Shown: positions 243-44,976, numbered from the stretch's first letter. The stretch: DNA of 47,550 nucleotides from Candidatus Desantisbacteria bacterium CG1_02_49_89 (GCA_001871075.1 MNUP01000028.1:1-47550); one strand, 5' to 3'. Translations and numbers: made by a program. The notes: a model not told the origin generated them from the letters alone.

Positions 243-376
243 CCCCTGTAGCCCCTTTGGGGCTTAACATAGGGACCTGCGAGCCAGAGCCCTGCCAGCT
301 CCAAAGGAGCTCAACGGCAGGACCTACGAATCAGAACGGAGCTGATGATTCTCCGGCTGGGTAGATGGCTCTTCGG
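243..376 (+). repeat. Structured dispersed repeat, family A, copy 1
   Basis: A 134-bp element recurs with the same length and only a few differences at 5378-5511. It folds on paper into hairpins. The first has an outer stem CCCTGT/ATAGGG (imperfect), an inner stem AGCCCC/GGGGCT and a 3' bulge TAAC. The second, around 291-322, has CCTGCC/GGCAGG outside, AGCTCC/GGAGCT inside and a bulge CAAC. The third is GAATCA/TGATTC around 328-351. The same architecture with different stem sequences occurs at 16592, 26203, 31267, 44814 and 44911. Confidence 0.8.
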
Positions 377-435
377 TTAATGCAGGAACCTACAGACCTG
401 AACGTGGTCGAAGGTCTTGCGGACGGGGGGACTTC

Positions 436-459
436 GGCTTCGCCTCAGGCTTCGCCTCA
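436..459. repeat. 12-bp tandem duplication
   Basis: GGCTTCGCCTCA is present twice in a row, directly before the 74-bp promoter-proximal repeat unit. It may be a slippage product. No function is evident. Confidence 0.75.
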
Positions 460-461
460 GC

Positions 462-540
462 TTGACCCCTGCTAATTTCTGTGAAATTAAGCTGCTGGGG
501 TCTTCGTCTCTTGGTTCTTAAGTGGGGTTTTTTCCTTGAC
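462..540 (+). repeat. 74-bp repeat unit ending in a -35 element (family E)
   Basis: TTGAC occurs at 462-466 and again at 536-540, exactly 74 bp apart. The unit between contains a hairpin TAATTTC/GAAATTA nested in GACCCC/GGGGTC-like arms. The same unit with the same 74-bp period is present twice at 17654-17801. In both places the terminal TTGAC becomes the -35 box of the downstream gene. Confidence 0.8.
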
Positions 541-564
541 AAACAGCGGAAAGTATGCTATACT
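536..564 (+). promoter_or_regulatory. Sigma70-type promoter of the toxin-antitoxin operon
   Basis: TTGACA (536-541), a 17-bp spacer, then TATACT (559-564). Transcription should start near 571, placing the antitoxin ATG (609) about 38 nt into the message. Confidence 0.8.
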
Positions 565-583
565 TATAGTAAGTATTGCTTAC
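551..583. promoter_or_regulatory. Two palindromes over -10 and start site, likely autoregulatory operator
   Basis: AAGTAT-GCT-ATACTT (551-565) overlaps the -10 box, and GTAAG-TATTG-CTTAC (569-583) lies over the predicted start site. Type II antitoxins with an AbrB-type DNA-binding fold usually repress their own operon at such sites. The assignment is inferred from position. Confidence 0.6.
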
Positions 584-608
584 AATAAATAAGGAAAGGA
601 AGGATAAT

Positions 609-893
609 ATGAGAACTGCTAACGTCAGGCCCGTAGGCCCCAGGAATCAGGTAACCCTGCCCAAGGAAGCGCTTGAGCTTTTTAAAATACACCCCCATGA
701 CCTCATCGCTTTTGTGTATACCAAGGAAGGCATACTCATTAAGCCGGTCACCGTTGTTGACAGAGACGCGTCTTTCGCTGAAGACGACCTTGACGAGATA
801 GAAAGGTCCATCCGGCAGCAGGTAAACGCCGGAGATTTTACCGAATTTTCCAGTTCAAAAAAAGCGGTCAGCTTTCTGAAGGGAAAGAAATGA
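609..893 (+). CDS. AbrB/MazE-type antitoxin
   Basis: A 94-residue protein whose first ~47 residues look like the swapped-hairpin AbrB DNA-binding fold (VGPRNQVTLPKEALELFKI, then a strand-rich segment ending GILIKPV). The charged C-terminal half should wrap and neutralise the partner toxin. I chose the ATG at 609 because it follows AAGGAAGG-type Shine-Dalgarno sequence; an upstream in-frame ATG at 576 lies almost on the predicted transcription start and has no ribosome binding site. The stop overlaps the toxin start (ATGA), so the pair is translationally coupled. An AbrB-fold antitoxin beside a RelE-fold toxin is less usual than MazE with MazF. Family assignment is by sequence pattern. Confidence 0.85.
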   Translation: MRTANVRPVGPRNQVTLPKEALELFKIHPHDLIAFVYTKEGILIKPVTVVDRDASFAEDDLDEIERSIRQQVNAGDFTEFSSSKKAVSFLKGKK

Positions 894-1165
894 AGGTTAG
901 ATACCTGAATTCTTTCATCCTCCAGTTTGAATCTATGCCGGCGCAGGACAGGCGGAAAGTCACCGGTGCTGTCTCCGGCCTGCTTGGTTTCATCGAGAAA
1001 AGGGTCCGCCCGCCCGCGGGACTGGGCATAAAGAAGCTCAGGAAGAACCTGTGGGAAGCCAGGGCGGGCATCAGAACAAGGGTTCTTTTCGCGCTTGAAC
1101 CGGGCCTGGTTACTTTCGCTTTTACGGGAAACCACGACGAGATCCGCCGGTACCTGCGGAAATAA
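890..1165 (+). CDS. RelE/ParE-family toxin
   Basis: A 91-residue basic protein with a RelE/HigB-type layout: N-terminal helices (about residues 1-40), a KKLRKNLWEAR segment, then strands carrying R-x-R and a C-terminal EIRRYLRK. Such proteins usually cleave ribosome-bound mRNA, though the ParE branch poisons gyrase, and sequence alone does not settle which applies. It starts inside the antitoxin stop codon by a 4-bp overlap. Length is normal for the family and no truncation is seen. Confidence 0.8.
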   Translation: MKVRYLNSFILQFESMPAQDRRKVTGAVSGLLGFIEKRVRPPAGLGIKKLRKNLWEARAGIRTRVLFALEPGLVTFAFTGNHDEIRRYLRK

Positions 1166-5363: not shown

Positions 5364-5377
5364 GCGTGAAACTGCTA

Positions 5378-5511
5378 CCCCTATAGCCCCTTCGGGGCTT
5401 AACATAGGGGCCTGCGAGCCAGAGCCCTGCCAGCTCCAAAGGAGCTCAACGGCAGGACCTACGAATCAGAACGGAGCTGATGATTCTCCGGCTGGGTAGA
5501 TGGCTCTTCGG
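5378..5511 (+). repeat. Structured dispersed repeat, family A, copy 2
   Basis: Same 134-bp length as 243-376 with only a few differences. These include T-to-C in the loop of the first hairpin (TTTG becoming TTCG) and a G-to-A in its outer stem. All three hairpins are kept. Confidence 0.85.
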
Positions 5512-5620
5512 AAATAAAGGGGACGGGTTCATTTATTTGCCTGTAAGATGATCTTTGCTTCGCGCAAATGATGATTACCCCTGCAGTCCCGATAAAAAGA
5601 ATCGGGACAAGACGCAGGGG
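5512..5620. repeat. GGGGACGGGTTC motif and CCCCTGC hairpin
   Basis: AAATAAA (5512-5518) and TTTATTT (5532-5538) flank the GGGGACGGGTTC motif. At 5578-5620 a nested hairpin has outer arms CCCCTGC/GCAGGGG and inner arms GTCCCGAT/ATCGGGAC. The rest of 5621-5904 has another hairpin (CCCGCC 5711-5716 / GGCGGG 5727-5732) but no supportable gene. Confidence 0.65.
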
Positions 5621-5904
5621 TCCTTTAGGGACAGTGATTATTAAATAATGATTACGGTGTTAAAACTTTCTTCACAGGGATTCAGCGGGATTCAAACTAC
5701 AGGCATGTGTCCCGCCCAGCAAACGTGGCGGGCAGGCATGAGTGAAACCGCTTATTGCGGCAAACACTCGACATTTATTTGTGAGCAACAAGGTTCTGCG
5801 AAGCAGGTTCTTATGGCATATCGCATATGGCGTATCGTTTAAGACAGATACTGAATCCCAGATACCGAATGAAGGGAAATTAAAAGTAAAGAAGGAGGTA
5901 TAAA

Positions 5905-16570: not shown

Positions 16571-16591
16571 TCAATTCTTGCCTATGTATTA

Positions 16592-16721
16592 TCCCTGTAG
16601 CTCCAATCATCCCTCCTACTTTCTTTCGAAAGTGACAGGGGGGACCTGCGCCCGCCAATATTCGTGGCGGGCTTCGGCACAGGGATCTACGAGTCAGAAC
16701 TGGGTTAATGACTCTCCGAGG
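16592..16721 (+). repeat. Structured dispersed repeat, family A, with internal insertion
   Basis: Outer arms CCCTGT (16592-16597) and ACAGGG (16679-16684) enclose further hairpins. The one at 16611-16643 (CCCTCCT, ACTTTC/GAAAGT, AGGGGGG) recurs at 31267-31299. A CCCGCC/GGCGGG hairpin follows. The usual tail comes next with the stem GAGTCA (16691-16696)/TGACTC (16709-16714). The element ends in CCGAGG, which serves as Shine-Dalgarno for the next gene. Confidence 0.75.
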
Positions 16722-17653: not shown

Positions 17654-17815
17654 GGTTTTTTCCTTGACCCCTGCTAATTTCTTCGAAATTAAGCTGCTGG
17701 GGTCTGCGTCTCTGGGTTCATAAGTGTGGTTTTTTCCTTGACCCCTGCTAATTTCTTCGAAATTAAGCTGCTGGGGTCTGCGTCTCTGGGTTCATAAGTG
17801 TGGTTTTTTCCTTGA
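17654..17815 (+). repeat. Two tandem 74-bp units plus partial third (family E)
   Basis: Units begin at 17654, 17728 and 17802, exactly 74 bp apart, and the first two are nearly identical. Each contains TTGACCCC, a TAATTTC-TTC-GAAATTA hairpin and GGGGTCTGCG. The third copy breaks off right after TTGAC, which becomes the -35 box at 17812. The single unit at 462-540 ends the same way. Confidence 0.9.
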
Positions 17816-17840
17816 CAAATGTCAAAAAATAACGTATAAT
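17812..17840 (+). promoter_or_regulatory. Full-consensus promoter giving a probably leaderless mRNA
   Basis: TTGACA (17812-17817), a 17-bp spacer, then TATAAT (17835-17840). Only eight bases separate the -10 box from the ATG at 17849, so transcription should begin at or within a base or two of the start codon. No Shine-Dalgarno sequence is possible. Confidence 0.8.
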
Positions 17841-26088: not shown

Positions 26089-26202
26089 GCAAGATTAAGC
26101 AAAAATGTAGCGGTGCGATTTATCGCACATTTGTATTTCGCGCTTCTCCCCCCGGATTTGCTCCGCAAATCAAAACAGGGGGGACTTCGGCTACGCCCCG
26201 TA

Positions 26203-26263
26203 GAGTCATTGACTTTAACCTGACTCGTAGGTCCCTGTGTTAAGCCCCGAAGGGGCTACAGGG
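26203..26263 (-). repeat. Structured dispersed repeat, family A, minus orientation
   Basis: Read on the minus strand it has CCCTGT/ACAGGG outer arms, AGCCCC/GGGGCT inner arms, the TAAC bulge, ACCTACGA, and the second stem GAGTCA/TGACTC. Downstream (26270-26325) is a GGGGTCTGCGTCTCTGGG segment shared with the 74-bp family E units. Confidence 0.75.
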
Positions 26264-26319
26264 ATCAGGATAAGCTGCGCAGGGGTCTGCGTCTCTGGGT
26301 ATGAAAGTATGCCTCCTCC

Positions 26320-26347
26320 TTGACTTTCAGGGTTTTTATGATATAAT
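26320..26347 (+). promoter_or_regulatory. Promoter upstream of typA
   Basis: TTGACT (26320-26325), a 16-bp spacer, TATAAT (26342-26347). It leaves a ~165-nt 5' leader containing two heptamer arrays. As at 536 and 17812, the -35 box follows a GGGGTCTGCGTCTCTGGG-type repeat. Confidence 0.7.
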
Positions 26348-30238: not shown

Positions 30239-30295
30239 AAGACGGGCGGAAAGGTTAAAAATGTTAAAGGGGTTAAAGAGGGTAAAAGGGGTAAA
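30181..30295 (+). repeat. Composite repeat D, copy 1: heptamers, hairpins, nonamers
   Basis: Two GCTCAAA heptamers (30181-30194) lead into GTTACCCGCC, a CCCCGATGG/CCATCGGGG hairpin, the segment GAGGTCTCGCCCGCTGAAAG, ACGGGCGG, and then four 9-bp units (30257-30292, AAANNGGKT type). The same order occurs at 31107-31226 with different heptamers. Confidence 0.85.
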
Positions 30296-30308
30296 GGTTG
30301 ATAATCTG

Positions 30309-31106: not shown

Positions 31107-31226
31107 GTTGAACGTTGAAAGTTGAACGTTGAAAGTTACCCGCCCAATCGGATAGATCGGGCGAGGTCTCGCCCGCCGAAAGACGGGCGGAAAAAGGTTA
31201 AAGAGGGTAAAGGGGGTAAAAAGGTT
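31107..31226 (+). repeat. Composite repeat D, copy 2
   Basis: GTTGAAC and GTTGAAA alternate twice (31107-31134). GTTACCCGCC, a CGATC-type hairpin, GAGGTCTCGCCCGCCGAAAG and ACGGGCGG follow, then three 9-bp units (31200-31226). The core matches 30195-30251 closely, while the heptamers differ (GCTCAAA there). Confidence 0.88.
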
Positions 31227-31266
31227 CGCGCCAGAATGTGTTACCCCCGCAGTTCCGACACAATAT

Positions 31267-31340
31267 CCCCCCTACTTTCTTTCGAAAGTGACAGGGGGGA
31301 CTTTCGGGTCAGAACTGAGCCTATGACCCTACAGAGGAAG
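31267..31340 (+). repeat. Family A-type hairpins merging into a ribosome binding site
   Basis: 31267-31299 is the hairpin CCCCCCT, ACTTTC/GAAAGT, AGGGGGG seen at 16611. The tail stem GGGTCA/TGACCC (31307-31329) corresponds to GAGTCA/TGACTC elsewhere, a compensated change. It runs into AGAGGAAG, the ribosome binding site of the next gene. Confidence 0.7.
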
Positions 31341-32506: not shown

Positions 32507-32515
32507 ATAAAAGTT

Positions 32516-32551
32516 AAAAAGGTTAAAGAGGGTAAAAAGGTTAAAGGTTAA
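32516..32551. repeat. Nonamer array
   Basis: Period-9 units alternate AAAAAGGTT, AAAGAGGGT, AAAAAGGTT, then degenerate AAAGGTTAA. These are the same units as in composite repeat D at 31200-31226. Confidence 0.8.
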
Positions 32552-32683: not shown

Positions 32684-35600
32684 CTATTTGTTGGTTACCT
32701 TTATAACGGAGACAAAAAGGTCATTATCGTAGGCGAACCTGAAATCAAAGCCGTTGCACCGTTTCTTGAAATCCGCGTCTTCTATGGTGAACACGTATTT
32801 TTTCCAGGACCCGCTGTCTTCAAGGGCGATACCGTCCCCGGGAGTTTTCCACGGCCCTTCTTTTGAATCGTAGTTCAAAGCTATGCTGCCCGTGCCCTCG
32901 TCGAAATATTCTATCTCTATCTCCACTTTTTTCCCCGGCTTGAAATCCGGGCCTGCCTTGCAGTACAGGAACCTTCCTCCGCCGTATTTGTTGGGCACAA
33001 GCTTCCTGCAGGATTTCCCTTCTTTTTCAGCCGGTTCTGTGAGCCCGTCCTCCCCGTCACCCTGTACCAGGCCTTTTTCACTATTCTTCTTACCCAGCTT
33101 GACCGATATCTCAGCCGCAGAGGGTTTTTTGGCGGCCTCGAAAACACTGACGCCGTTTATAGGATCTTTTTCCGAGAACAGCACGCATCCGATGGAATTC
33201 GGTTCAAGCGTAATTTTATATTCGTTCGCAGCGGGCTTTGCTATGCCTGAGCCTGTAACTTTATCAGCGGGAATGCGGATCGTTTTCTCAATTTTTTCTT
33301 CAGTTGAATTGTAATAGATGATCCTGTCCTGCTGCAGGACCGCGAACAACCCGTCCTTTTCGCCGTCAACCTCGGGATAAACGCCGAACTTAGCCCTTAA
33401 AGCCCTTATCGTCTGGAAATAGCCGGCGTTGTCAGCCCAGGTGCCGGGGAACAGGGCGACATATCCTTTGTCTTTTTTTACAAGGCAGCGGTCCAGGACC
33501 TTACCCGTATCGATCTGTTTTACCTTTATCCTGTTGTGGAACACCTTTTCTTCTTCGCTTGCCCCGCTCTCGTACAGCTCAGCCGATCTCACCATTATGC
33601 CAAGGGTGCGGTTGTCGCTTGATCCCGGCATTTTTTCCGCAGGCATCCATCCTTCAACTTCCATCATGATCTCAAGGCCGGTTTTGCCCTTAAGTTCTTT
33701 GCCGCTTATTTCCACGGGTTCCATGCCCGCGCTGATGTCCGCTGCTTCCTTTCCGTTTACGAAGAGTTTGCCCGGCACAGGGCAGTCAGCCGTAAGCCTG
33801 AACACGTAATCCTTCTGCGGGTTGACAGTGAACCTGAAACCGCATTTTGTGCCTGACCAGCGCCAGTGGGATGATTCGTTGCCGCCCTCAATGCCGTTCC
33901 AGTCCCCGGTAAGGTATGGTTCGTCCCCTGTGATGCCGACATTGAGCACAAAGTAAGAGGGGAGGTCGGCAGCGGCCATGCTCTTTATTTCCGCCGGATA
34001 CTCGTCCGAGCCTATGATGTCCGCCTGGGCTTTTTTATCTCCCTCAGGGGTCTGGAAGCTCGCGCCCATGTCATAGGTCACGAATATGCCGCCTGCCTTG
34101 ATCCATTCGGATATCTTGTCCCAGACCTTCTGTTCCGTGATATTTCCCTCAAGCATGACCAGGAACCTGTATTTGTCCAGGGCCCCGTCCATGATCATCC
34201 ACTCGTCCAGGTAATCGTGGTCAAACCAATCCCTCATACCGGCGCTGCGCGCGTAGAACTCTCCGTAACGCTCTTCCGCGACGGCGAAATCTATACGCGG
34301 GCAGAGCACCGCGATGTCGATGAGCGGCGCGGCTTTTGTAAGGAATGCCTTGTGGCGGAAGAACGCGTCTGTTGCCTGCGGTATTGTTTTGCCGCTGTCA
34401 GATGCGAAGACATTGCCGCCGTAAAAATGCACCTCGTCAGCTCCGGCTGCCGCGGCGCCGAACATGCGCGCGACAACCCCTTTGGGGGTTACGTTCCCCG
34501 CAGGCTCGTAACTGAACGGGATATCGTAGAACCTTGCCGCTGATGCGACCTGCCTGGTCATCGTGAAATTAGCCGCGTAATCCGAGCCCTCGTTTGTTAT
34601 GCGTATGCCGCCGTTATATTTCTTTGCCATTTTTATCTGGGCTGAGAAATCAGAGCCCAGGCAGTTGGCGTCCGATCCGCCGGTGCATATGACCGGAGGA
34701 ACGTCCGCAAAATATTTGCGCGTTGTTGAGACCCAGAACTCAGTGAAGTCTGTCATCGATTTCCTGTACCATTCCATCTGGTCCAGCCAGTGCCTTGAAG
34801 ATAAGGCGCTTTTCCGCAGGACCGGGCTTATGGCCGCAAAATCCGCGAAGGATGCCTTCCAGGCAGCGTTCAGTTTTTCGGCCGTCAGATATTTTGCTTT
34901 CAGGAATTCCTTGAAATCCTTTTTCGCGTTCTCGTCCCCGCACCAGAACCCGGTGTGGACATGGTATTTGGTGTTCCAGTTGCCGCCTGCCGGATATATG
35001 GATTCCCCGTAATCGCCTGTCACGCCCAGCAGAACCCTTTTAATGACTTTCTTGTCCGCGTAACGCTGCGCGAAAATGCCGATAAACCTGTCGATCTCCG
35101 CCTTTAAGTAAGGGCTCCACAAAGACTGGTCAGCGGTTGCCTGGTTATGCTCAAGGCACACATAAGGGTAATGCTTTTCCGATTTCCTGAACCAGTCGGG
35201 AAATGAATACCAGGACCCCACTATTATGAACGGCATCCAGCCCTCGCCGAATTCCTTCAGTATCTTCACGTTGCGGTCATCATTCTTCCAGTTGAAAACT
35301 CCCGGCTGCGGCTCCACAACGTCCCACAGCACGTGGATGTACATCTCGGCCGCGGTCATTCCCAGGTCCCGGCAGAGTTTTGCCGCGCGCCTCGCTGATT
35401 TGTCGCTCTTTGAAAAATCAAACCCGAAAGTCACTTCCATCGGTGTCCTGTTGCTCAGGAGAAGGCTGTCTGTTCCTGTCTGTTCCTGCGTATAAGCGTA
35501 TCTTCCCCATTTCTTCAGGTCATAGGTGCGGCTGGTTACCCAGGAGGGCGGGGGGTTCTTGTCAAGGCTCAGAGCGAAAATATGTATGCTGGCGTTCTGC

Positions 35601-36151
35601 GGCAGGGTCAGTGTAACAAGCTCTTTCAAAGGATCAGCAATTACGCCCTGCGCGTAAAGGCAGCATGGGAACTCAGTCCTTTCTCCTTTCCTTATCATAG
35701 CAGGGAAGGCCGCGGCGTTTGTTTCGCCGAATTTCGGTTCTCCCATCCAGTCAGAGACGCCAAAAAGCTCTTTCGAGGATGAGCCGTCCGAATACGTTAG
35801 TATGAGGTCTTCAAGATAATCAACGCTTGAAGAGGCGCAAAGCGCGTAGATTACCGCGTATTTCCCCTTCGGCACATCGATCACCTGTGCCTGCGAAGAG
35901 ATATTGTCGGGTGCACCTTTCTTAAGCGCAGGCACAGAAAAGGGGATGCCGTTCGCTGTAAGTGTTTTTACGGGAAAAGAATCCCCGCAATAGCCGGAAT
36001 TGGCGAAATCAAGGTCCGGGGTCTCTCCCGCGGAACTTACGCCGCAGTTATTAAAATATTTGGAAAGATCAACGGGGGTGATGCTGGATGCGGCGAAAGC
36101 CGAGAGGCAGAAAGCGAAAAGAAAAACAGCGCAAAAAAATATGTGCTTCAT
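32684..36151 (-). CDS. Secreted GH14/GH42-like glycoside hydrolase
   Basis: 1155 residues with a Sec signal peptide (about 1-20, LSAFA). An N-terminal beta domain (25-220) precedes a TIM barrel (about 230-620). Barrel landmarks are EMYIHVLWDVVEPQPGVFNW, the GVTGDYGESIYP block (likely acid/base Glu) and SYEPAGNVTP (possible nucleophile region). This resembles the family-14-like and GH42-like proteins common in candidate phyla. A trimerisation/GATase-like region, beta domains and a C-terminal CBM-like sheet (about 1010-1155) follow. It is the only enzyme of the minus-strand cluster with a signal peptide and probably acts outside the cytoplasm. AAGGAG precedes the ATG. Exact family uncertain. 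Confidence 0.8.
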   Translation of the reverse strand: MKHIFFCAVFLFAFCLSAFAASSITPVDLSKYFNNCGVSSAGETPDLDFANSGYCGDSFPVKTLTANGIPFSVPALKKGAPDNISSQAQVIDVPKGKYAVIYALCASSSVDYLEDLILTYSDGSSSKELFGVSDWMGEPKFGETNAAAFPAMIRKGERTEFPCCLYAQGVIADPLKELVTLTLPQNASIHIFALSLDKNPPPSWVTSRTYDLKKWGRYAYTQEQTGTDSLLLSNRTPMEVTFGFDFSKSDKSARRAAKLCRDLGMTAAEMYIHVLWDVVEPQPGVFNWKNDDRNVKILKEFGEGWMPFIIVGSWYSFPDWFRKSEKHYPYVCLEHNQATADQSLWSPYLKAEIDRFIGIFAQRYADKKVIKRVLLGVTGDYGESIYPAGGNWNTKYHVHTGFWCGDENAKKDFKEFLKAKYLTAEKLNAAWKASFADFAAISPVLRKSALSSRHWLDQMEWYRKSMTDFTEFWVSTTRKYFADVPPVICTGGSDANCLGSDFSAQIKMAKKYNGGIRITNEGSDYAANFTMTRQVASAARFYDIPFSYEPAGNVTPKGVVARMFGAAAAGADEVHFYGGNVFASDSGKTIPQATDAFFRHKAFLTKAAPLIDIAVLCPRIDFAVAEERYGEFYARSAGMRDWFDHDYLDEWMIMDGALDKYRFLVMLEGNITEQKVWDKISEWIKAGGIFVTYDMGASFQTPEGDKKAQADIIGSDEYPAEIKSMAAADLPSYFVLNVGITGDEPYLTGDWNGIEGGNESSHWRWSGTKCGFRFTVNPQKDYVFRLTADCPVPGKLFVNGKEAADISAGMEPVEISGKELKGKTGLEIMMEVEGWMPAEKMPGSSDNRTLGIMVRSAELYESGASEEEKVFHNRIKVKQIDTGKVLDRCLVKKDKGYVALFPGTWADNAGYFQTIRALRAKFGVYPEVDGEKDGLFAVLQQDRIIYYNSTEEKIEKTIRIPADKVTGSGIAKPAANEYKITLEPNSIGCVLFSEKDPINGVSVFEAAKKPSAAEISVKLGKKNSEKGLVQGDGEDGLTEPAEKEGKSCRKLVPNKYGGGRFLYCKAGPDFKPGKKVEIEIEYFDEGTGSIALNYDSKEGPWKTPGDGIALEDSGSWKKYVFTIEDADFKKRCNGFDFRFAYDNDLFVSVIKVTNK

Positions 36152-36164
36152 AAAATCTCCTTTG

Positions 36165-36304
36165 AAATCTCCCCTTACCCCTCCTTTTAAAGGAGGGGAG
36201 TGTATAAAATCCCCCTTTTTAAAGGGGGAGACAGGGGGATTATTAAATAATCTCCCCTTGCCCCTCTTTATGAAAGAGGGGAATAGCCGGGCTAAAGCCC
36301 CGCG
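36165..36304. repeat. TCCCCC/GGGGGA hairpin cluster
   Basis: Three successive palindromes: CCCCTCCTTTT/AAAGGAGGGG, TCCCCCTTTTT/AAAGGGGGA and CCCCTCTTT/AAAGAGGGG. GGCTAAAGCCCC-GCGTTACG follows, and its TTA is the reverse complement of the GH116 stop codon. Confidence 0.75.
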
Positions 36305-38833
36305 TTACGAAAGGATTATTTGAAGAACTTCTTTTTTAAGGTTCAATGCTTTAGGGAAATGGATGAGAAGGACCTTGCCGCGCCTGATCAGCTCGCAGGG
36401 GACGGGTTTGTTGTTAACCAAGGCTAAAAGCGCGGTAAACCGCGCCGCTACATTACCCAGAGATAGGGTCTGCAGGGAAAGGGAGCCGTAAGCGACCTCA
36501 ACGCGGGCGGTCATTTTTTTACCGGCGCGTTTCTGCGAGAACAGGCCCCAGCCGGAATCAACGGAAAAGAAACAGGAGAAATTATCCGCGTTAACGCGGG
36601 GCGAGAAACTCATCATCAGGATGGGCGCCGAATAGTGGAATCCGGACAGCGCGAGCAGCGCAGCCCATGAAGCCATTGAACGGGCATAGTGGTTGCCGCA
36701 CTCCATCTCGTTCCAGGGATTCCTTTTCTCTCCGTCATACCTGTCCCGCAGGCCTTTGATGACCGCAAGTCCTTCCTTCACAAGCCCTTCGTATATCAGG
36801 TGGGTGCCGACCTGGTACTCGATGCCCCCGCCCCATATCTCGTCGCAGTAGGGGAAGGGGATCTTGGGCCTTTTGCCTTTAGGCCAGGTGCAGATGAGCA
36901 GGCCGCTTTCGGTGTTCAGGCCGTAAACCCGCATGAAATTCACGTGGTTTTTCAGGCTTTTCTTCCAGTTGTATTTAAAGATCGAAGACATTGCCTTCTT
37001 CACCTTTTTCTCTTCAAAAAGGTAACCCATGTCGTTTATGTGCGCGAACCACTGCCCGATCATCTGGTCGGAAAGGCAGCCTGTCTTGAACTGGTATTTC
37101 AAATCCGGGTTTTCAGGCGCTTTTTGAAAATAATATTCGCCGTTGAAAAGATTCTTATCCATCCACCTGCTCCCGCTTTCAAAGAGAGCGCGGTATTCGT
37201 CCGCCTTTTCGTCCTCGCCCAGATACCTGGCTATCTCCTCCGCGCTTCGCAGGGCTCCCATGTAAAAACTTCCCATCATCGTGTTGGGGCCGTGGAATTC
37301 TATGTCATACGTGTTGTGCTGGATGCCTTCCATAACCCCGTCCTTGTCAAGGTCCCACCAGTCCTCGTTTGTTTTATTCCAGGCGTATTCAAGGGCTTTT
37401 TTTGCAGCCGGCCACAGTGATTTGAGCCACTTATCATCCCCGCTGAGCTGCCAGTCACGGTACAGCTTCATCAGCCCGCCCATCTGCCCGTCTCCCGCGG
37501 CGTGGAAATCTCCCTTTCCGCTTCCGAGCGGAAGCTGTATGCGGAACTGCATCTTTCCGTTCTCGAACTGGTTGTATCTGTAGTCGGCAGAGCGCATGCT
37601 TCTTTCAAGGCCGGGGAACAGGAACGCGAGTGTCTGCGCGTAGTTCCACACATGGGTGCATGAGCCCTCGCAGCACCCGCAGTTGGTGCCGCACCCTTCA
37701 AACCCGTAGAAGGTGCCGTCCTCAAGCCGCAGGCAGGTCGGGGATTTCAGTATGGATGCCTGGCTTGACACCGCGTCCAGCACGTAGTCCGGCAGGCTTG
37801 ACCTGAACAGGGTGTCATGGAACAGCTTCGTCTCTTCATAAAGGCGCTTTTCGTTCTCAGCCACGTATTCCGCTGTGTCAAATGCATCCTTGAAAAGCGA
37901 CGCGTAGTAATTCTTCCATACAGGTTTATTTGGAGAGCCGTCCCAGTATTTCTCAAAGTTGGGGAAATGCCAGGTGATGTAGATTGGAAGATTGACAGAT
38001 TGAGAAGGTTCAAGATTAACTGATAAAACAATAGCCCCGGTGTCAGTCTGGTTGTCTGCCGAGGGTTCATATGTCCGGTCTTTTACGGCCCCGTGTTCCA
38101 CGAATTCATCCCAGAAGATCCTGGGGCTGTCAAACCAGCCTTCCCGCGTCCAGCAGGTCTGGAAGGAGACGTTTTTCCAGGGGGTTGTAAGAGCCATTGA
38201 GCCGAAATGCGGGTCGTTTTCCTTGTATTTCTTCGTGGTCATGAAAAGGCCTTTTAATGAATTTGATGACCCTGAAGGGTCTACTCCTAACTCCATAAAG
38301 GTATTCACGTTCTGGCCGTAAGAAGGGAACCCGGCAGCGTTAAAAAGGCTGGCAGCGAGCGCAGCGTTCACCTTCTTCCTTCCTTTATTTACAAGCGTGA
38401 AGCGGAATATGGCGCAGGGAATGCTGGAATCCTTCGCGTTCAGGGGTATGAAAGGGTTATACGCTTCCATAGAAACCTTTAAAGGTATTTCGCTGTCCCG
38501 GAAATCAATGTTCGCGAAAGGGTATTCGCCGCGGAAAACGCAGGAATCCATGTGCGGCAGGCCTGCGCCGTTCTCTCTTATGTAGCCGCTTGGGCCCTGG
38601 TACGGCGGGGCAGGAGGCGCTTGGAGTAGTTTAGCTATTGGCTCATGGCTCATGGCTCGACACCTTAAGATAAAAAAAGAAAACGGTAAAATACAACCCT
38701 TATTGGGCTTGTTGAATATTTCCCAGTCCTTAAGCTCGCCGTGCCCGCCAAGGGAAACGCTTCCCGTGCCTATGCCGCCCAGGGGGAAGGCGATCTCATT
38801 CAGGCGTCGGCCCGTGAATGTGAATCTATTCAT
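36305..38833 (-). CDS. GH116-family glycosidase (bile-acid beta-glucosidase type)
   Basis: 842 residues from the Met at 38833, chosen because GGAGG stands five bases upstream; the open frame extends to 38869. The N-terminal beta-sandwich starts EIAFPLGGIGTGSVSLGGHGELKDWEIFNKPNKG, diagnostic of GH116. The C-terminal alpha/alpha barrel holds the probable nucleophile E389 (CCEGSCTHVWNYAQ) and acid/base D510 (HNTYDIEFHGPN), by analogy with human GBA2 and bacterial GH116. It removes beta-linked glucose or xylose. No signal peptide, so cytoplasmic. Three AT-rich patches inside the gene (37981, 38268, 38640) look like intergenic repeats inserted in frame. Confidence 0.93.
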   Translation of the reverse strand: MNRFTFTGRRLNEIAFPLGGIGTGSVSLGGHGELKDWEIFNKPNKGCILPFSFFILRCRAMSHEPIAKLLQAPPAPPYQGPSGYIRENGAGLPHMDSCVFRGEYPFANIDFRDSEIPLKVSMEAYNPFIPLNAKDSSIPCAIFRFTLVNKGRKKVNAALAASLFNAAGFPSYGQNVNTFMELGVDPSGSSNSLKGLFMTTKKYKENDPHFGSMALTTPWKNVSFQTCWTREGWFDSPRIFWDEFVEHGAVKDRTYEPSADNQTDTGAIVLSVNLEPSQSVNLPIYITWHFPNFEKYWDGSPNKPVWKNYYASLFKDAFDTAEYVAENEKRLYEETKLFHDTLFRSSLPDYVLDAVSSQASILKSPTCLRLEDGTFYGFEGCGTNCGCCEGSCTHVWNYAQTLAFLFPGLERSMRSADYRYNQFENGKMQFRIQLPLGSGKGDFHAAGDGQMGGLMKLYRDWQLSGDDKWLKSLWPAAKKALEYAWNKTNEDWWDLDKDGVMEGIQHNTYDIEFHGPNTMMGSFYMGALRSAEEIARYLGEDEKADEYRALFESGSRWMDKNLFNGEYYFQKAPENPDLKYQFKTGCLSDQMIGQWFAHINDMGYLFEEKKVKKAMSSIFKYNWKKSLKNHVNFMRVYGLNTESGLLICTWPKGKRPKIPFPYCDEIWGGGIEYQVGTHLIYEGLVKEGLAVIKGLRDRYDGEKRNPWNEMECGNHYARSMASWAALLALSGFHYSAPILMMSFSPRVNADNFSCFFSVDSGWGLFSQKRAGKKMTARVEVAYGSLSLQTLSLGNVAARFTALLALVNNKPVPCELIRRGKVLLIHFPKALNLKKEVLQIILS
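37981..38020. repeat. Octamer array inside the GH116 gene
   Basis: Five 8-bp units starting AGATTG: AGATTGGA, AGATTGAC, AGATTGAG, then degenerate AAGGTTCA and AGATTAAC. The protein segment is VNLEPSQSVNLPI. Codons are AT-rich, unlike the surrounding GC-rich gene. Confidence 0.7.
38268..38290. repeat. Intergenic repeat fragment inside the GH116 gene
   Basis: 23 bp matching 19227-19249 with one mismatch. Translated on the minus strand it gives LGVDPSGS, a probable surface loop. Confidence 0.7.
38640..38660. repeat. Heptamer array inside the GH116 gene, GGCTCRW x3
   Basis: GGCTCAT twice, then GGCTCGA, 21 bp in total, encoding RAMSHEP on the minus strand. The length is a multiple of three, so the frame is preserved. 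The adjoining codons are AT-rich. Confidence 0.75.
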
Positions 38834-38853
38834 TGTGCCTCCATTTCGTGCTT

Positions 38854-38951
38854 CGTAACATCGTAACATCGTGCATCGTTAAATCCCCCTCTTTCCCCCT
38901 TTTTAAAGGGGGATGGCAGGGGGATTTCTTAATCAGGGCTGAAGCCCTGAG
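38854..38951. repeat. Octamers, TCCCCC hairpin and GGGCTGAAGCCC palindrome
   Basis: CGTAACAT occurs twice (38854-38869), then degenerate units. A TCCCCCT/AGGGGGA hairpin follows at about 38896-38914. GGGCTGAAGCCC leads into TGAGTTACG, whose TTA (38952-38954) is the reverse complement of the stop codon of the next minus-strand gene. Confidence 0.75.
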
Positions 38952-40946
38952 TTACGCGACCTTAAGCAAAACAATTTCCCACGGATGCAACTCTTTGATC
39001 TCAAACACAGAATACGGCTTATCAATGCGCATGCGTTTGATTTTTTCAGCGGACATATCAGTGTGGATCAGTGTCAAATTGTTTGCGTCTTCCAGTATGT
39101 TTACCCTTACTTTTTCCGCAATGTCCAGGGAACAGTTTAGCAGGAGCAGGGCGGGCCTGCCTTTTTTATCCCTGCGGCACCAAACTGCGATCTTGTGGAA
39201 TGAAGACACGTACGCCGGAAGGGTGTCCTTCGAAAGCCACCTTAAAAGAGTTTTTATCTGCGAGCTCTTTGAAAGGCTGTGCAGGGAGGTCCACGGATAA
39301 TATCCCTGGACAGCGAAGCGTCCGCCGAGAGGGTTCTCGAACGCGCCGCATAAAGGGCCGGAGTTTTTGTCAGCGTAATCAAAGGCTTCTGAAAGGACCC
39401 TGCTTTCTTTTTTAAGCGGTTTCAGGATATACGCGTCAGCCTTCCAGAAAGACTGTCGGCAATCCCTTTCCCATCCTTCGAACTTCCCGTTTATTTTGTC
39501 CCCGGTCAGCATTTCCCGGGTATCCTTATCTTTCGTTCTTTCTATGCCAAACCCGGTGTATTCCGCCATCCCGAGCTCATTGAGCCTTTTCAGGGCAGGG
39601 GCGTCAGCAAGCACGCCGCCCGAAAGCATTTCCTTTATTTCGTTTTTTGAGAACGAGGCAAAACAGTCTTCGGTAATGACCTTCACCGAGGAAGAGCCCT
39701 TCGCGTACGCAACCGGTATCCCGATCTGCGAGAGCTCAAGCACGCATCGCGGCCCGACCGCCGGCCCGGTATGCGGCCAGCCGCTGTTATCGATGCCGAA
39801 CGTGGCGTAACAGTCCCTGTCTGCGGCAAACCCGGCCCCTTCGCATTTGCTCCTGCCGAAAGCCTTTACTTCTTCTTCAAAGAACCTGCGGTATTTCTTC
39901 GTCCCTTCAAAATAGGGAATGTATTCATCCATGGAATCCTTGATGGTCCCGATTATGTTCAGGGCTACACCCGTGCATCCCTCGCCGATATACGCGGCTG
40001 ATTCCAGGCAGACCGTTTTCGCGCTTTTCTTAAGTTTCTGGTAGGGGAAGTTCTCGAGTTCGGACACTATATCGTAAACCTCAGCGGGCAGGGACTCGGC
40101 CTGCCTTCCGATGGAGTGTGCTTTTTCAAGCAGTTCGCAGGGGTTGTCATCAGTGTAAAACCCGCCTCCGGGCCGCCATTTTATCTCGACGCTGTTTTTT
40201 CCCGAAAGCGTCTCGGCCCACCCGCGGAATTCCCTTCCGGAATAGTATATGTCGGCTGTCATAAGCCCCAGTTTTATGGAGGGGTCCACGCTGTCAACCG
40301 CTTTCCTGATCAAAGCGAGGATCCCGTCTATCGCCTTGCGGTTATGCTCAAGCCATTTCTTCCGCAGGCCCAATTTTTCTTCCATTGAACCCGAGTTGAA
40401 TGCCTTGTCCAGTTTTTCCCTTGTCCACGCGGTCCCTGTTTCTTTCGAGAACAGTTCCAGGCATTTTTCGCAGAAACAGGCGAACCTGACAGGCGCGTGC
40501 CCTTCCATCCTGAGGTCATCGTCCACCCAGATGAAATCCGGCTTTGTCTTCGCGTACATAATGTAGGTTTGGGCAACGTATTCCCTGAAGTTCTCGTCCG
40601 CGGGGCAGAAGCTTCCTTTCGCTACGGTTCCGTTGATGTCGGTCATTCTCTGCCAGGGCTCATCCAGGGAGTTTTCAAGGTTCTCATCCAGGTGGCCGAG
40701 TGTAGCGAGGTAGTTGACCCCGGTTGAGAAACCGAGCTTCCTGAAACGCGGCATGACTTTTTTCAGCACCCTTGCGCGTTCTGCGGCGGTTTTTGCGGGG
40801 ACAGGAGGGTGGGTGAAGCCGGTGAAGAACGCCAGCTCGTCAACGGTGCCGCGGTATTTCCTGAGCAGTTTTAAAAGTTCGGCGCAGTTACCCTCATCCA
40901 TCCATAAGGGCACGCCTACCCGCAAAGCAACCTTTGATTTTTTCAT
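38952..40946 (-). CDS. Glycosidase-like TIM-barrel protein, family unassigned
   Basis: 664 residues from the Met at 40946, supported by AGGAGG upstream (the open frame runs to 40970). I recognise no named family. The first ~330 residues look like a TIM barrel of hypothetical glycosyl hydrolase type: LRVGVPLWMDEGN, DFIWVDDDLRMEGH (acidic strand end) and the paired cysteines CFCEKCLELF often seen in GHL and GH42 proteins. Later parts resemble a GATase-like trimerisation domain (about 380-480) and a C-terminal beta domain. No signal peptide. Its position between GH116 and GHL6 genes suggests a role in the same sugar pathway. Confidence 0.75.
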   Translation of the reverse strand: MKKSKVALRVGVPLWMDEGNCAELLKLLRKYRGTVDELAFFTGFTHPPVPAKTAAERARVLKKVMPRFRKLGFSTGVNYLATLGHLDENLENSLDEPWQRMTDINGTVAKGSFCPADENFREYVAQTYIMYAKTKPDFIWVDDDLRMEGHAPVRFACFCEKCLELFSKETGTAWTREKLDKAFNSGSMEEKLGLRKKWLEHNRKAIDGILALIRKAVDSVDPSIKLGLMTADIYYSGREFRGWAETLSGKNSVEIKWRPGGGFYTDDNPCELLEKAHSIGRQAESLPAEVYDIVSELENFPYQKLKKSAKTVCLESAAYIGEGCTGVALNIIGTIKDSMDEYIPYFEGTKKYRRFFEEEVKAFGRSKCEGAGFAADRDCYATFGIDNSGWPHTGPAVGPRCVLELSQIGIPVAYAKGSSSVKVITEDCFASFSKNEIKEMLSGGVLADAPALKRLNELGMAEYTGFGIERTKDKDTREMLTGDKINGKFEGWERDCRQSFWKADAYILKPLKKESRVLSEAFDYADKNSGPLCGAFENPLGGRFAVQGYYPWTSLHSLSKSSQIKTLLRWLSKDTLPAYVSSFHKIAVWCRRDKKGRPALLLLNCSLDIAEKVRVNILEDANNLTLIHTDMSAEKIKRMRIDKPYSVFEIKELHPWEIVLLKVA

Positions 40947-41005
40947 TATACCTCCTGTCTGCTGATGCAAGCGGATTAGACAATACGGATGCAGACGGAT
41001 AAAAA

Positions 41006-41106
41006 ATTACAGATTACAGATTATAGATCGGAAGAGTTAAATTTGAAATTTGCAATTTGCAATTTGAAATTTCTTTTACTGGCCACTGGACACTGGCCAC
41101 TGGTCA
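41006..41106. repeat. Three successive heptamer arrays
   Basis: 41006-41026 is ATTACAG twice, then ATTATAG. 41041-41068 is ATTTGAA, ATTTGCA twice, ATTTGAA. 41079-41106 has four units CTGGNCA with N = C, A, C, T. The last array ends two bases before the complement of the next gene's stop codon. Three different heptamers sit side by side, each with variation at one or two fixed positions. Confidence 0.92.
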
Positions 41107-41108
41107 CT

Positions 41109-43142
41109 TTATTCAAGGACGACCATCTGGTGGCCCCTGACCTCAGGCACGCTTACGACAGCGCAGTTCCCGGCCATTTCGAACGGTATGTCAATTTCCT
41201 GAGGGGCAAGATAGACGCGGGACGGTTTTTTTGCCGTGCGGATGTGCAGGAGCACGTCACGGACAGGATAAATGGTCTCGATATATTCCATGATGCCGTG
41301 CCTGCGCTGCGGCTGGAAATTGACAAGGTGGACCACAAGCCTGCCTTTCTGCTTGAGCACGTCTATTTCCATTGACGCGGGCGCGTTTGCCCGGATAAGC
41401 GGCTCTTTGAGCAGCATGTTCAGGGCGTTGGCGAAGATCGTTTTATACGCATGGTATCCGTGCAGGTGGTAACCCTTGAAAATAGAGCCGTAGATATAGA
41501 TGACCCTGCCTTTTTGAACAGCGACCGGATAGGGAAGGGTTTTGTCAGGCGGGGACTGAAAATGCGAGCAGAAATGGCGATAATCCCGGTTGAAATAGCT
41601 GGAGCAGACGTTACCCATGCTTTTCGCGCCACCTGCGGTCTTTTTCACGAGGCTTGATTCCTCGTACATCGCCCAGGGTGTCTGCACAAGCCCTTTGCCC
41701 AGGGCGGTGTCCAGCTTCATGAAGCTGGGTATGAATTCGCAGGGTTTCACGTATTTTGCGCCGATACCGGGGCAGGCGAATTTACCGGTGTTCTTATCAA
41801 GGGTTGCTTCGTGTGAAAGGATCACAGACCCGCCTTTTAAAAGGAACGCGCTAAGTTTTTTGCGCAGGGCAGGGCCGCATGCACCCTTGTCAGGCAGGAC
41901 CAGTACCTTGTATTGATCGAAGTTCCCTTCGGTTGATTCCACGTTCCACTGGTGTTTCAGTTCCTGCAGCATAGCCCCGGCCCCGAACCGCGAGTCATTA
42001 AAAAGCATGCCTTCCCACGGAGAGCCGATCTCGACTGAAGCATCAGGTTTGTCCGGAAGCATGAGCACCGCGATTTCCGCTATTGCTTTTGCTCCAACGC
42101 ACCACGGCTCTCTTTCCTCAAGTTTTTTATATGTCGCGCCTACTATCTCATAGACACCTTTGTTGAGTTTACCGCGCGGGTGCAGCTGGTCCCCGATCCC
42201 CATCCCAGCGCCTGCTCCCAGTATCGCGCCCATTTCGTATTCAAGCTGGTCTTCTGTTTTCAGGCCTCCGAAATCACCCCAGGACTTGTGGAACCTGGCG
42301 GTCTGGCCTACGTACCTGCGGTTAAGGGTCCTGCACATCCTTGCCATGAACGGGAAGAACAGGTATCCCCAGCCCGGAACAGTGGGTAGGGATTCTATTT
42401 CAAGGTGGGTGAGCACGTCCAGCTCGTTGCGGACATTCGGGGTGACACGGGAGTTGAAAAAGAGCATGGCGTTCGGTTTTATCCTGCGCACCGCTTTTGC
42501 AAGCTCCCTGGTGTATTCGCGGATGATGCGGTATTCCATGTCCCAGTGCTTCGCGTCGTCATTGCGGTCAAAGCCCTCTTTATCCATCCTTTCAAGGCAC
42601 CGCTGGCAGAAACACCCGGGATACGGCGCGGGATAGCACATGTCGAACCATATGCCTTCGGGATCGTATCTCTTCATTATCTCGACTGCCTGGTCTTCGA
42701 CGTACTTGTAATATTCGGGGTTGTTCATGCACATGTTGTACCATGCAGCTTCCATCGGGGAGGGGCACCACGGCCTGCCGTCTTTTGTCCTGTTAACCCA
42801 GCCAAGGTTCTGCCTGCCCATGTGCACGTCAACCTTGACGCTTACGTAAACAGGGGTGGCGATGTTGTATTTGCGGCACGCCTTTATCTGTTTTCCCAGC
42901 AGGTCGAATTTTAATCCGGGGTGCATTGTGCCGGTCTTTGTGGGGTAATAGCTCATACCGTGGTGGCATTTGCCGAAAAGGGTGATAAGGTTCACCCGCG
43001 CTTTGTTAAGCGTGCTGCCGAACTCGTCCGGGTCGAACTCTGTCCCCACGTCCTTTATAAGCTCGGATGTGTGGAAATCAAGGTGCACCCATCGCAGGCG
43101 TTGCTCGCAGATCTGCGCCGGCGTTATTACTTTTCTTGCCAT
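41109..43142 (-). CDS. GHL6-like protein with beta-galactosidase trimerisation domain
   Basis: 677 residues without signal peptide. The N-terminal TIM barrel matches the hypothetical glycosyl hydrolase 6 pattern: LRWVHLDFHTSELIKDVG, FGKCHHGMSYYPT, GIWFDMCYPAPYPGCFCQRCLERM and FNSRVTP. A flavodoxin-like trimerisation domain (about 365-500; DQYKVLVLPDKGACGPALRKKLSAFLLKGGSVI) and a C-terminal beta domain follow. The catalytic activity of this group is not established; a fucosidase- or galactosidase-like role is plausible from the neighbours. TAGGAGG precedes the ATG. Confidence 0.85.
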   Translation of the reverse strand: MARKVITPAQICEQRLRWVHLDFHTSELIKDVGTEFDPDEFGSTLNKARVNLITLFGKCHHGMSYYPTKTGTMHPGLKFDLLGKQIKACRKYNIATPVYVSVKVDVHMGRQNLGWVNRTKDGRPWCPSPMEAAWYNMCMNNPEYYKYVEDQAVEIMKRYDPEGIWFDMCYPAPYPGCFCQRCLERMDKEGFDRNDDAKHWDMEYRIIREYTRELAKAVRRIKPNAMLFFNSRVTPNVRNELDVLTHLEIESLPTVPGWGYLFFPFMARMCRTLNRRYVGQTARFHKSWGDFGGLKTEDQLEYEMGAILGAGAGMGIGDQLHPRGKLNKGVYEIVGATYKKLEEREPWCVGAKAIAEIAVLMLPDKPDASVEIGSPWEGMLFNDSRFGAGAMLQELKHQWNVESTEGNFDQYKVLVLPDKGACGPALRKKLSAFLLKGGSVILSHEATLDKNTGKFACPGIGAKYVKPCEFIPSFMKLDTALGKGLVQTPWAMYEESSLVKKTAGGAKSMGNVCSSYFNRDYRHFCSHFQSPPDKTLPYPVAVQKGRVIYIYGSIFKGYHLHGYHAYKTIFANALNMLLKEPLIRANAPASMEIDVLKQKGRLVVHLVNFQPQRRHGIMEYIETIYPVRDVLLHIRTAKKPSRVYLAPQEIDIPFEMAGNCAVVSVPEVRGHQMVVLE

Positions 43143-43148
43143 GAATCC

Positions 43149-43196
43149 TCCTAATCCCCCTCAAATCCCCCTTTAATAAAGGGGGAAGAAGGGGGA
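43149..43196. repeat. TCCCCC/GGGGGA hairpin between GHL6 and GH29 genes
   Basis: TCCCCCTTTAAT/AAAGGGGGA with flanking AATCCCCC/GGGGGATT. It is the same family as 1225, 36165 and 38881. It may stabilise or separate transcripts, or be a mobile palindrome. Confidence 0.75.
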
Positions 43197-44513
43197 TTAT
43201 CTTTTAAGGAATAATTCCACGACCGGCACCGTGACGCTGGGCTTGTCCGCAGGCAGCTGCAGCACTACCGATCTTTCCTGCCTTTTGCCTATCTTCTTCC
43301 TTGCCATCTGGTCCGCCACCCAGGGCTCAAGCCCCAGCCCGATCTCGCTGGCGTCATTTAACAGCTGGGCGTATTCAACCCTGTCAGCAAAAGCGTTGCC
43401 GTCAAGATAAAGGTGCCTGTAAGGCCACGCGAGTATGTGCACGTAAAGCCTTCTTGCCGCGGGGTTGTAAGTAAGCTTACAGTTCTCAGGCACATTGAAC
43501 TCAGCCGGAGCCTGGGTGCAGCCGTAGATAGACCTGCCGTGCCTTCTCATCCATTCGCCTATACCCTCAAGCCTGGCAATAGCGCGGTAATCGAATTCTC
43601 CCCTTGCCGTAGGGCCCACGTTCAATAAAAGATTGCCGCCCTTGCTGACGCAGTCGATAAGGGTGCGGATAAGCTCGTCAACGCTCCTCCATGAGGACTC
43701 GTCCCTGTGGTATCCCCATGAGCCGGAGAATGTCTGGCAGGCTTCCCACACCACTTTCTGGCCGTTGACAGTTACCCATTCCCTGGGCTGGAACTGTTCA
43801 GGCGTCTTGATGTCCCATCCTTTTTCAAGGTCAAGCCTGTCGTCCAGCATTACGCCGGGCATCAGTTCCCTTACCATCTTGTAAAGTTTTTCGCTCTGCC
43901 ATTCGTTGCGCCCTTTGCCTGACCCGTCAGGCTTGGGATAGGAAAAGTCAAACCACATTATGTCTATCTTGCCGAATTTTGTCAGCAGTTCCCTTACCTG
44001 GTTGTGCAGGTATTCCGCGTATTTTGCCTGGTTGCGCGTCTTGTTCATTTTATCCCTGTCAGCGTTGCGGTACGGCCCGACATGGGGATCTATCGTGTAC
44101 TGCGGGTGATGCCAGTCGATCAATGAATGGTACAGGCCAACGCGCAGGCCGTTATTGCGGTACGCGTCCACCATAGGTTTTAAAAGGTCCTTGCCGCATG
44201 GAGTGCTGGGCGCTTTGTAATCGGTGTATTCCGAATCCCACAGGCAGAAACCTTCATGGTGCTTTGTCGTGATGACGAAATATTTCATGCCCGCGTTCGC
44301 TGCTGTCTTCGCCCACATCTCGGGGTCATAAAGGTCAGGGTTGAAATGTTTGAAATACCTGCGCTCGTATTCAGGGACGGGTATCTGCTCGTTGTGCTGC
44401 AGCCACTCGTGCCTGGCGCCCATCGCGTACAGCCCCCAGTGAATGAACATCCCGAACCTTGCTTCCGTGAACCACTTTGAATCTCCCGCCGTTCTCCGAA
44501 CCTGCTCCGCCAT
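43197..44513 (-). CDS. GH29 alpha-L-fucosidase
   Basis: 438 residues from the Met at 44513, supported by AGGAGG (the open frame extends to 44546). The catalytic barrel shows GH29 landmarks: WFTEARFGMFIHWGLYA, TKHHEGFCLWDS, YHSLIDWHHPQY, and the nucleophile Asp189 in KIDIMWFDFS. GGNLLLNVGPTARGEF is also typical. The acid/base is not conserved across GH29 and cannot be assigned safely. No signal peptide, so it likely removes terminal alpha-fucose from imported oligosaccharides. Length fits the family. Confidence 0.95.
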   Translation of the reverse strand: MAEQVRRTAGDSKWFTEARFGMFIHWGLYAMGARHEWLQHNEQIPVPEYERRYFKHFNPDLYDPEMWAKTAANAGMKYFVITTKHHEGFCLWDSEYTDYKAPSTPCGKDLLKPMVDAYRNNGLRVGLYHSLIDWHHPQYTIDPHVGPYRNADRDKMNKTRNQAKYAEYLHNQVRELLTKFGKIDIMWFDFSYPKPDGSGKGRNEWQSEKLYKMVRELMPGVMLDDRLDLEKGWDIKTPEQFQPREWVTVNGQKVVWEACQTFSGSWGYHRDESSWRSVDELIRTLIDCVSKGGNLLLNVGPTARGEFDYRAIARLEGIGEWMRRHGRSIYGCTQAPAEFNVPENCKLTYNPAARRLYVHILAWPYRHLYLDGNAFADRVEYAQLLNDASEIGLGLEPWVADQMARKKIGKRQERSVVLQLPADKPSVTVPVVELFLKR

Positions 44514-44534
44514 TGCTCCTCCTTTTTTAAAACA

Positions 44535-44586
44535 GTCATGGGTCATGCGTCATGAGTCATGTGTAAAAAGCGTGTCAGCGTGTCAA
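44535..44586. repeat. Heptamer array GTCATGN x4 and octamers
   Basis: 44535-44562 has GTCATGN four times, with N running through G, C, A, T. 44571-44586 is CGTGTCAG then CGTGTCAA. The heptamer core is the same as in the micro-ORF cassettes (7581 and about 16201). Confidence 0.9.
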
Positions 44587-44607
44587 CGTAAAAACAAGGA
44601 TTTTATT

Positions 44608-44683
44608 GTAACTCAAACCTTCAGGTTTGATATCAGGACTCCCTCCTTAAAGCCTGGCGGGTCTTCGAAAAGTCCTGAGTTAC
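44608..44683. repeat. Nested inverted repeat GTAACTCA/TGAGTTAC
   Basis: Outer arms GTAACTCA (44608-44615) and TGAGTTAC (44676-44683). Inside are a TCAAACCT/AGGTTTGA hairpin and AGGACT/AGTCCT arms. GGCGGGTCTTCGAAAAG within also occurs near 17606. No gene. Confidence 0.65.
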
Positions 44684-44813
44684 ACATCGTTCTCACTAAA
44701 CTCAGTGCCTTCGGCGGCAAAATGAGTTCTCGTAAGTTCCCTGTGAAAAGAGTCTTAAGGTAGTCTCCCGCCACTTCGGCGGGTCGCCGATGGGGCGACT
44801 GTGCCTCTGTGCC

Positions 44814-44976
44814 GTAGCGCCATCCACTCAGTTCTGGTGCGTAGGTCCCTGTGTTGAGCTGCGTAGCAGTTACAGGGAACTCTGTGGTAATTCTTTTCGT
44901 GCTTTCGTCCGCAGCGCCATCTGCTCAGCTCTGGCGCGCAGGCCCCTGCGTTGAGCTGCGCAGCAGCTGCAGGGGG
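44814..44976 (-). repeat. Two family A elements in direct repeat, 97 bp apart
   Basis: 44814-44878 and 44911-44976 are aligned copies that differ mostly by T/C changes. On the minus strand each has the double hairpin with CAAC bulge. The outer stem is CCCTGT/ACAGGG in one and CCCCTGC/GCAGGGG in the other; the tail stem is GCACCA/TGGCGC (one A-C mismatch) versus GCGCCA/TGGCGC. Confidence 0.8.

Follow-up and report, generated by a model that had tools for sequence, protein, structure and literature searches.

What is a short, folded sequence doing in copy after copy along a bacterial genome, and is it kept as RNA or as DNA? A 47,550-nucleotide stretch from Candidatus Desantisbacteria bacterium CG1_02_49_89 (GCA_001871075.1 MNUP01000028.1:1-47550), here called the window, raises this question, as it holds several copies of a double hairpin with covarying stems that an original prediction had described as either an undescribed RNA motif or a hairpin mobile element. 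We found the element to be dispersed through the genome, with a covarying fold, flush ends, clean insertions, copies nested in one another and a depletion from open reading frames (ORFs). Our preferred reading, to which we assign a probability of roughly 0.6, is that it is a non-autonomous, self-nesting, REP-like mobile DNA hairpin element that inserts without target-site duplication.

A covariance model (R1) was built from 20 copies, using the structure first proposed with an added CC/GG helix to close the tail, and searched against the genome (G000; 2,481,651 bases in a 150-contig assembly that is 93.5% complete, with contigs given below as C-numbers), returning 112 matches at E<=0.001 (best E 6e-20). 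This confirms the original observation and makes the family larger than first reported. All seven copies named there were found at the places given, with the stems, 3' bulge and tail stem as described, except that those at 243, 5378 and 16592 are nested composites rather than simple copies. Across 113 distinct aligned rows, standard pairs made up 96.2% of pair cells, two-sided changes occurred at 20 of 21 pairs, and pairing fell to 27-54% when partners were shifted by 1-3 columns; a caveat for the covariation is that the rows were aligned by fitting them to the model. In our own R-scape-like implementation, which is not standard R-scape (a G-test with average product correction against 60 phylogeny-preserving nulls, in which substitutions mapped on a FastTree tree were replayed at random columns), the top 11 of 1891 column pairs were all proposed base pairs, seven of them at E<=0.05. 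The selected structure with compensatory change that had been claimed is thus borne out by the two-sided pairs and survives a test that accounts for phylogeny.

The unit is about 65-75 bp long and made of two abutting hairpins, whose bases coincide with both of its ends. In element orientation, hairpin 1 reads Y-CCCTG-N, then AG with a variable inner stem, an NAAC bulge and N-CAGGG-R; hairpin 2 follows immediately 3' as CC-TNCG-(stem CA-GARCNNRGYNNA-TG)-TNCG-G. At the outermost pair, where a 5' Y faces a 3' R, 34 copies have C.A, and in the set whose tail ends in CGA rather than CGG the partner C is replaced by T, so that the terminal pair is kept. Conserved unpaired positions are the CAGARC loop (the tail loop starts CAGAAC or CAGAGC in 76 rows), the NAAC bulge and the TNCG tags. 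The bulge had been called an invariant YAAC, which the larger family reduces to a consensus: TAAC stands in 38 rows and CAAC in 27 (together 65 of 113), followed by AAAC (8), CAAT (7), ATAAC (6), TAAT (5), GACA (5; the form of the copy at 31267) and others (17). The complementary strand reads CCGNAG-hairpin-CGNAGG-hairpin, placing a (C)GNAG tag 5' of each hairpin; strict GTAG is seen in about one third of hairpin-1 tags, the variable base being, on the element strand, T in 35, A in 31, G in 26 and C in 3. The tail with its GAAC loop exists in the form first described, but about 18 of the 113 rows have an unrelated tail hairpin (CCCGCC..GGCGGG), in which CCCGCCAATA..GTGGCGGG stands in for the tail stem-loop. 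This CCCGCCAATA..GTGGCGGG is a dispersed 21-nt hairpin present at about 44 places in the genome (e.g. L237-L243), occurring as a tip in element tails, in element inner stems and in unrelated TCATTGCGA..GAAGCAATC (TCATTGCGA..GCAATC) repeats. In a short subtype the second hairpin is GTCC-TTTAG-GGAC (5579-5631 in the window; sister copies L228-L234).

To define the insert, copy flanks were compared with uninterrupted versions within 359 kb of genome sequence, the empty sites being paralogous repeats within one genome rather than orthologous loci from a second strain. Many copies had matched empty sites; by comparison with these, the first base of the insert was that of hairpin 1 and its last base that of the tail helix, with no visible target-site duplication. 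Clean ends were seen between GAGCCAGAG and CTGGGT, CACGAATTTC and CACGGATT, ATTAG and CACGG, GGAG and ACACAGAG, and AAAGGTTA and AAAAGG, and the same clean ends recur in many unrelated host sequences. The copy at 290-356 interrupts the first of these junctions, intact at C97 and C82, which defines both ends; C1:2418 interrupts the second (intact at C30), C100:29802 interrupts TAG-CACGG (intact at C123), a C102 copy interrupts AAGGTTA-AAAAGG, and C30:6815 adjoins CACAGAG (intact at C97 and C123). Ten of 102 copies sat at the exact tip of a flanking stem of at least 6 bp, compared with a mean of 0.66 and a maximum of 5 in 200 shuffles of the flanks. Where the host is a hairpin of the CCGCCCCGA..TCGGGGCGAG type, the position of the element is taken in intact relatives by a short loop, for example TGGACA.

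Several copies are themselves nested in others, whose tail loop or inner tip holds them, and one nest has three layers (227-422 holds 243-376, which holds 290-356). Because 243-376 and 5378-5511 are direct repeats with 98% identity, some nests are probably copied composites rather than independent insertions. Only 6 of 93 loci overlapped an ORF of at least 150 aa, and 87 lay outside, compared with 74% of the sequence being coding by our rough ORF calls, so the element is mostly intergenic. Clean insertion against matched empty sites, nesting and dispersal together back the mobile-element half of the original prediction. A guide-to-target code in the tags was considered and rejected, as associations (mutual information) between tag and flank exist but follow subfamilies.

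Among known systems, the element looks like an elaborate relative of bacterial REP repeats. The REP, BIME and REPIN repeats are likewise short, intergenic, high-copy hairpins with an irregularity in mid-stem and, on one strand, a (G)NAG tag preceding every hairpin at its 5' side (Di Nocera 2013, PMC3733652; Bertels & Rainey 2011, PMC3116915; TnpAREP, PMC8266576), and RAYT-type Y1 proteins are encoded in this genome. The hairpins described here, of about 25-40 nt, match the 20-40 bp palindromes of REPs in size as well as in placement and copy number. Unlike these repeats, the element is one unit of two different hairpins in tandem (REPINs are inverted REPs forming one large hairpin), with flush ends and a variable tag base; it nests in its own loops and in hairpin tips, and RAYT genes are not flanked by it. 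In the IS200/IS605 family, hairpin ends are recognised as single-stranded DNA (ssDNA) and insertion proceeds without target duplication. The element differs from that family, whose guide and cleavage details are given in PMC8266576, in having no guide-specified target site, no linker from hairpin foot to cleavage site and no adjacent TnpA, and its flanks are not conserved, unlike the fixed short 3' target with guide pairing of a miniature inverted-repeat transposable element derived from IS200/IS605. By inspection, one RYYYAAC-like stretch (GCTTAAC) lies at the bulge with no partner, and so the paired R''/R' sites (RYYYAAC...GTTRRRY) of integron attC are not seen. The small dispersed repeats (SDR) of cyanobacteria, cited in PMC3116915, are similarly tiny and dispersed, a likeness in broad outline only, with shorter units and in a different phylum. 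Mitochondrial double-hairpin elements of Allomyces and fission yeasts, as summarised in PMC10085805 (citing Paquin 2000), are also two adjacent G+C-rich hairpins, mostly intergenic, non-coding and presumed mobile; unlike them, the element lies on a bacterial chromosome, and the likeness is one of description, with no sequence relation expected. Short hairpin repeats, REP tags and mitochondrial double-hairpin elements are already known as separate parts; no description was found in the literature searched of an element that has two different hairpins in tandem and flush ends, swaps modules and nests in its own kind at tips.

The original prediction had pointed to a Y1/REP-type transposase. Ten Y1_Tnp proteins are encoded in the genome, one IS200-like (150 aa) and the others mostly RAYT-sized, with genes on C83, C13, C100, C38, C80, C114, C23 (two) and C111 among them, yet just one of the ten genes, a RAYT gene on C13, has a copy beside it (of hairpin-1 type, lying some 70 nt before the gene's start). 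In E. coli, TnpAREP recognises REPs in single-stranded form by the GTAG tag and the stem bulge, and accepts no tag change (PMC8266576). The twin RAYT-like Y1 genes at C23:1824-4176 (L030, L031, L121) lie within GTAACTC-AAACCT-TC-AGGTTTGA hairpin arrays, a more classical REP-RAYT set, and the RAYT-like Y1 genes on C13, C100, C38 and C114 are bounded by terminal inverted repeats (e.g. TAGGGACAGGCACTATTTTTA), matching the RAYT genes in non-REP arrangement mentioned in PMC3733652. A reverse-transcriptase route was unsupported, the sole candidate being an incomplete RVT_1 where a contig ends.

Whether the fold is kept at the RNA level was judged from the kinds of departure from standard pairing, as stems selected in RNA would show G.U far above A.C. 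With the outermost pair excluded, element stems had 29 G.U and 23 A.C among about 2150 cells, compared with 39 G.U and 0 A.C among 754 pairs in 35 tRNAs of the same genome (Fisher P = 2e-7), folded by ARAGORN, which may favour good stems. The element stems thus lack the structural-RNA pattern of tolerated G.U and avoided A.C, which disfavours a function in transcripts of either strand and argues for a DNA-level fold or for neutral decay of inserted copies; the fold looks to be kept as DNA and not as a riboswitch-like RNA. It is therefore quite unlikely that the element is a cis-regulatory leader or mRNA-end motif under RNA-structure selection, spreading because it is useful in transcripts, even though some copies (16592 and 31267) abut start codons, at least two hairpin-1 copies in the order-mate G001 lead into AGGAGG and a start codon, and copies between co-directional genes show a mild orientation bias by rough ORF calls (39 sense, 22 antisense, P = 0.04). 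That same count leaves about one third of such copies antisense, tail hairpins are exchanged for an unrelated hairpin, no shared function was noticed among downstream genes, and an Rfam scan at gathering and permissive thresholds matched no family. The RNA half of the original prediction is accordingly not favoured. Spread without an enzyme, by replication slippage, template switching or recombination between short hairpin repeats with nested tips as recombination products, appears very unlikely: subfamilies do track particular host repeats (CACGGATT, GCAATGAC and CGA..TCG tips), and modules such as CCCGCC..GGCGGG are common to unrelated repeats as if composites were copied whole, but identical clean ends occur across many unrelated hosts, and the conserved unpaired loop, bulge and tags point to recognition.

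How such recognition might work separates the remaining possibilities. GNAG tags on the complementary strand together with a bulged hairpin fit the logic of REP recognition, and with moderate confidence we hold that the element behaves as an ssDNA hairpin element of REP type would; it is not classed as a REP because one tag base varies and no cognate RAYT is evident. A true GTAG-superfamily REP or REPIN, moved by a cognate RAYT that was missed through incomplete assembly or search, would share those tags and the bulged stem, the high intergenic copy number, the Y1 proteins and the C13 arrangement, but we consider it unlikely, given a variable tag base that E. coli TnpAREP would not tolerate, hairpins in tandem rather than inverted, and nine of ten Y1 genes without the element. 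Under the preferred mobile-DNA reading, the element would insert into intergenic DNA, the tips of other hairpins and the loops of its own copies. Its fold would act at the DNA level, most probably while single-stranded in replication, as the balanced G.U and A.C departures suggest, and a transposase acting in trans on ssDNA hairpins may recognise it. The leading candidate is a HUH enzyme of Y1/RAYT-like type, because on the complementary strand a (C)GNAG tag precedes each hairpin, hairpin 1 has a mid-stem bulge, and exposed hairpin loops would be natural ssDNA targets. Several points weigh against this. Known Y1 substrates are cut away from the hairpin foot; the ends of the element are flush with its hairpins. 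Within an assembly of 150 contigs that is 93.5% complete, the element lies near one of ten Y1 genes, and near none of three in G001, and the RAYT genes are flanked by other repeats (GTAACTCAAACCTTCAGGTTTGA arrays around both C23 genes, GGGACAGGCACTATTTTT-type terminal inverted repeats at other Y1 genes). No fixed target motif was found on either side of copies, neutral decay of inserted copies could account for part of the balance of G.U and A.C, and several inner-tip nests are without the 3' strand of the host inner stem (CGG-CACAGGG), so not every insertion is simple and clean and some rearrangement accompanies or follows nesting. A bolder possibility, which we regard as doubtful, is that this is a new kind of non-autonomous mobile DNA, whose ends are set purely by folding and which targets single-stranded hairpin tips, its own included, by way of a recombinase other than a known RAYT, so that the genome would grow fractal nested hairpins.

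R1 found essentially nothing in 58 other genomes, all but G001, the only order-mate, being related at domain level only. A model of hairpin 1 (R2), which included the best G001 copy and so matches that copy by construction, found nothing beyond G001 in 115 other genomes. In G001 there are about 10 hairpin-1 type structures with AAAC-like bulges, mostly without the conserved tail and several continuing into TCTACG; hence the architecture of hairpin 1 predates this species. A weak match in G040 was rejected, being without the element architecture. Plasmids and phages (blastn), viral contigs (by pattern) and a long exact-pattern scan of genome contigs gave no match. The G001 hairpin-1 copies at L127 and L129 are followed at once by AGGAGG and a start codon, a possible leader function in the sister lineage.

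Table 1. Copies of the double-hairpin element in the window, with the matches that locate them.
Position	Strand	Feature	Support and context
227-422	+	Outermost element of three-layer nest, TTCCTGCAGTTCC ... TTAATGCAGGAACCTACAGACC ... GGTCTTGCGG; next element at its inner-hairpin tip	Fold; outer stem formed by TTCCTGCA/TGCAGGAA; right half matched by R1 at 366-424; uninterrupted form GATTCCTGCAGTTCCTACGGAACTTAACGCAGGAACC at C26:3014
243-376	+	Middle element of nest; holds 290-356 in tail loop	R2 match 241-281
290-356	+	Innermost element	R1 match 287-358, 80.2 bits
5378-5511	+	Second two-layer composite; repeat of 243-376	R2 match 5376-5416
5425-5491	+	Element in tail loop of 5378-5511	R1 match 5422-5493
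5579-5631	+	Short subtype, hairpin 1 and minimal second hairpin	R2 match 5576-5626; within GATTA..GTGATTATT repeat
16592-16719	+	Composite with second element at inner-hairpin tip	R1 match 16589-16721, fold; directly 5' of ORF start (ATG at 16727)
16610-16677	+	Nested element with CCCGCCAATATTCGTGGCGGG tail hairpin	R2 match 16608-16650; tail pattern match 16651-16671
26198-26264	-	Single element	R1 match 26196-26267, 83.4 bits
31267-31334	+	Single element, GACA bulge	R1 match 31264-31336, 69 bits; 11 nt 5' of ORF start (31346)
44812-44878	-	Single element within CACAGAG repeats	R1 match 44810-44881, 79 bits; empty equivalent C67:4227
44909-44975	-	Single element within CACGAAAG repeats	R1 match 44907-44978, 82.2 bits; empty equivalent C51:1590

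Another family of dispersed hairpins, built as TTGACCCCTGC-inner stem-AAGCTGCTGGGGTCTGCGTCTCTGGGTTC, occurs in the window at 461-562, 17663-17764, 17737-17838 and about 26279-26320, and its two copies near 17.7 kb are in tandem; in C149, C84 and C82 the tip of such a hairpin carries the double-hairpin element. Short tandem tracts of AAAGGTTAAA type lie at 30250-30299, 31184-31233 and 32509-32549, and such tracts are element insertion sites elsewhere (C102, C27). The gene at 26519-28333 encodes a TypA/BipA homologue with best matches in Parcubacteria and other metagenome-assembled genomes of candidate phyla (up to 69% identity; about 53% for Armatimonadetes and others), a pattern that, from the matches, probably reflects transfer or bait bias. 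A large, mostly minus-strand cluster of genes judged by eye to be glycoside hydrolase-like occupies 32684-47012, including a beta-galactosidase-like gene (45024-47012) and an alpha-fucosidase-like gene (43197-44546).

REP-type repeats are common in bacteria, while their movement and choice of site are poorly understood. With some 110 clearly delimited copies, many matched empty sites and modules exchanged in nature (inner stems, tail hairpins and short second hairpins), this family allows direct tests of hypotheses on how such an element is recognised (bulge, tag and loop) and how it picks its targets (hairpin tips). It also broadens REP-like biology to include a deep, uncultured lineage.

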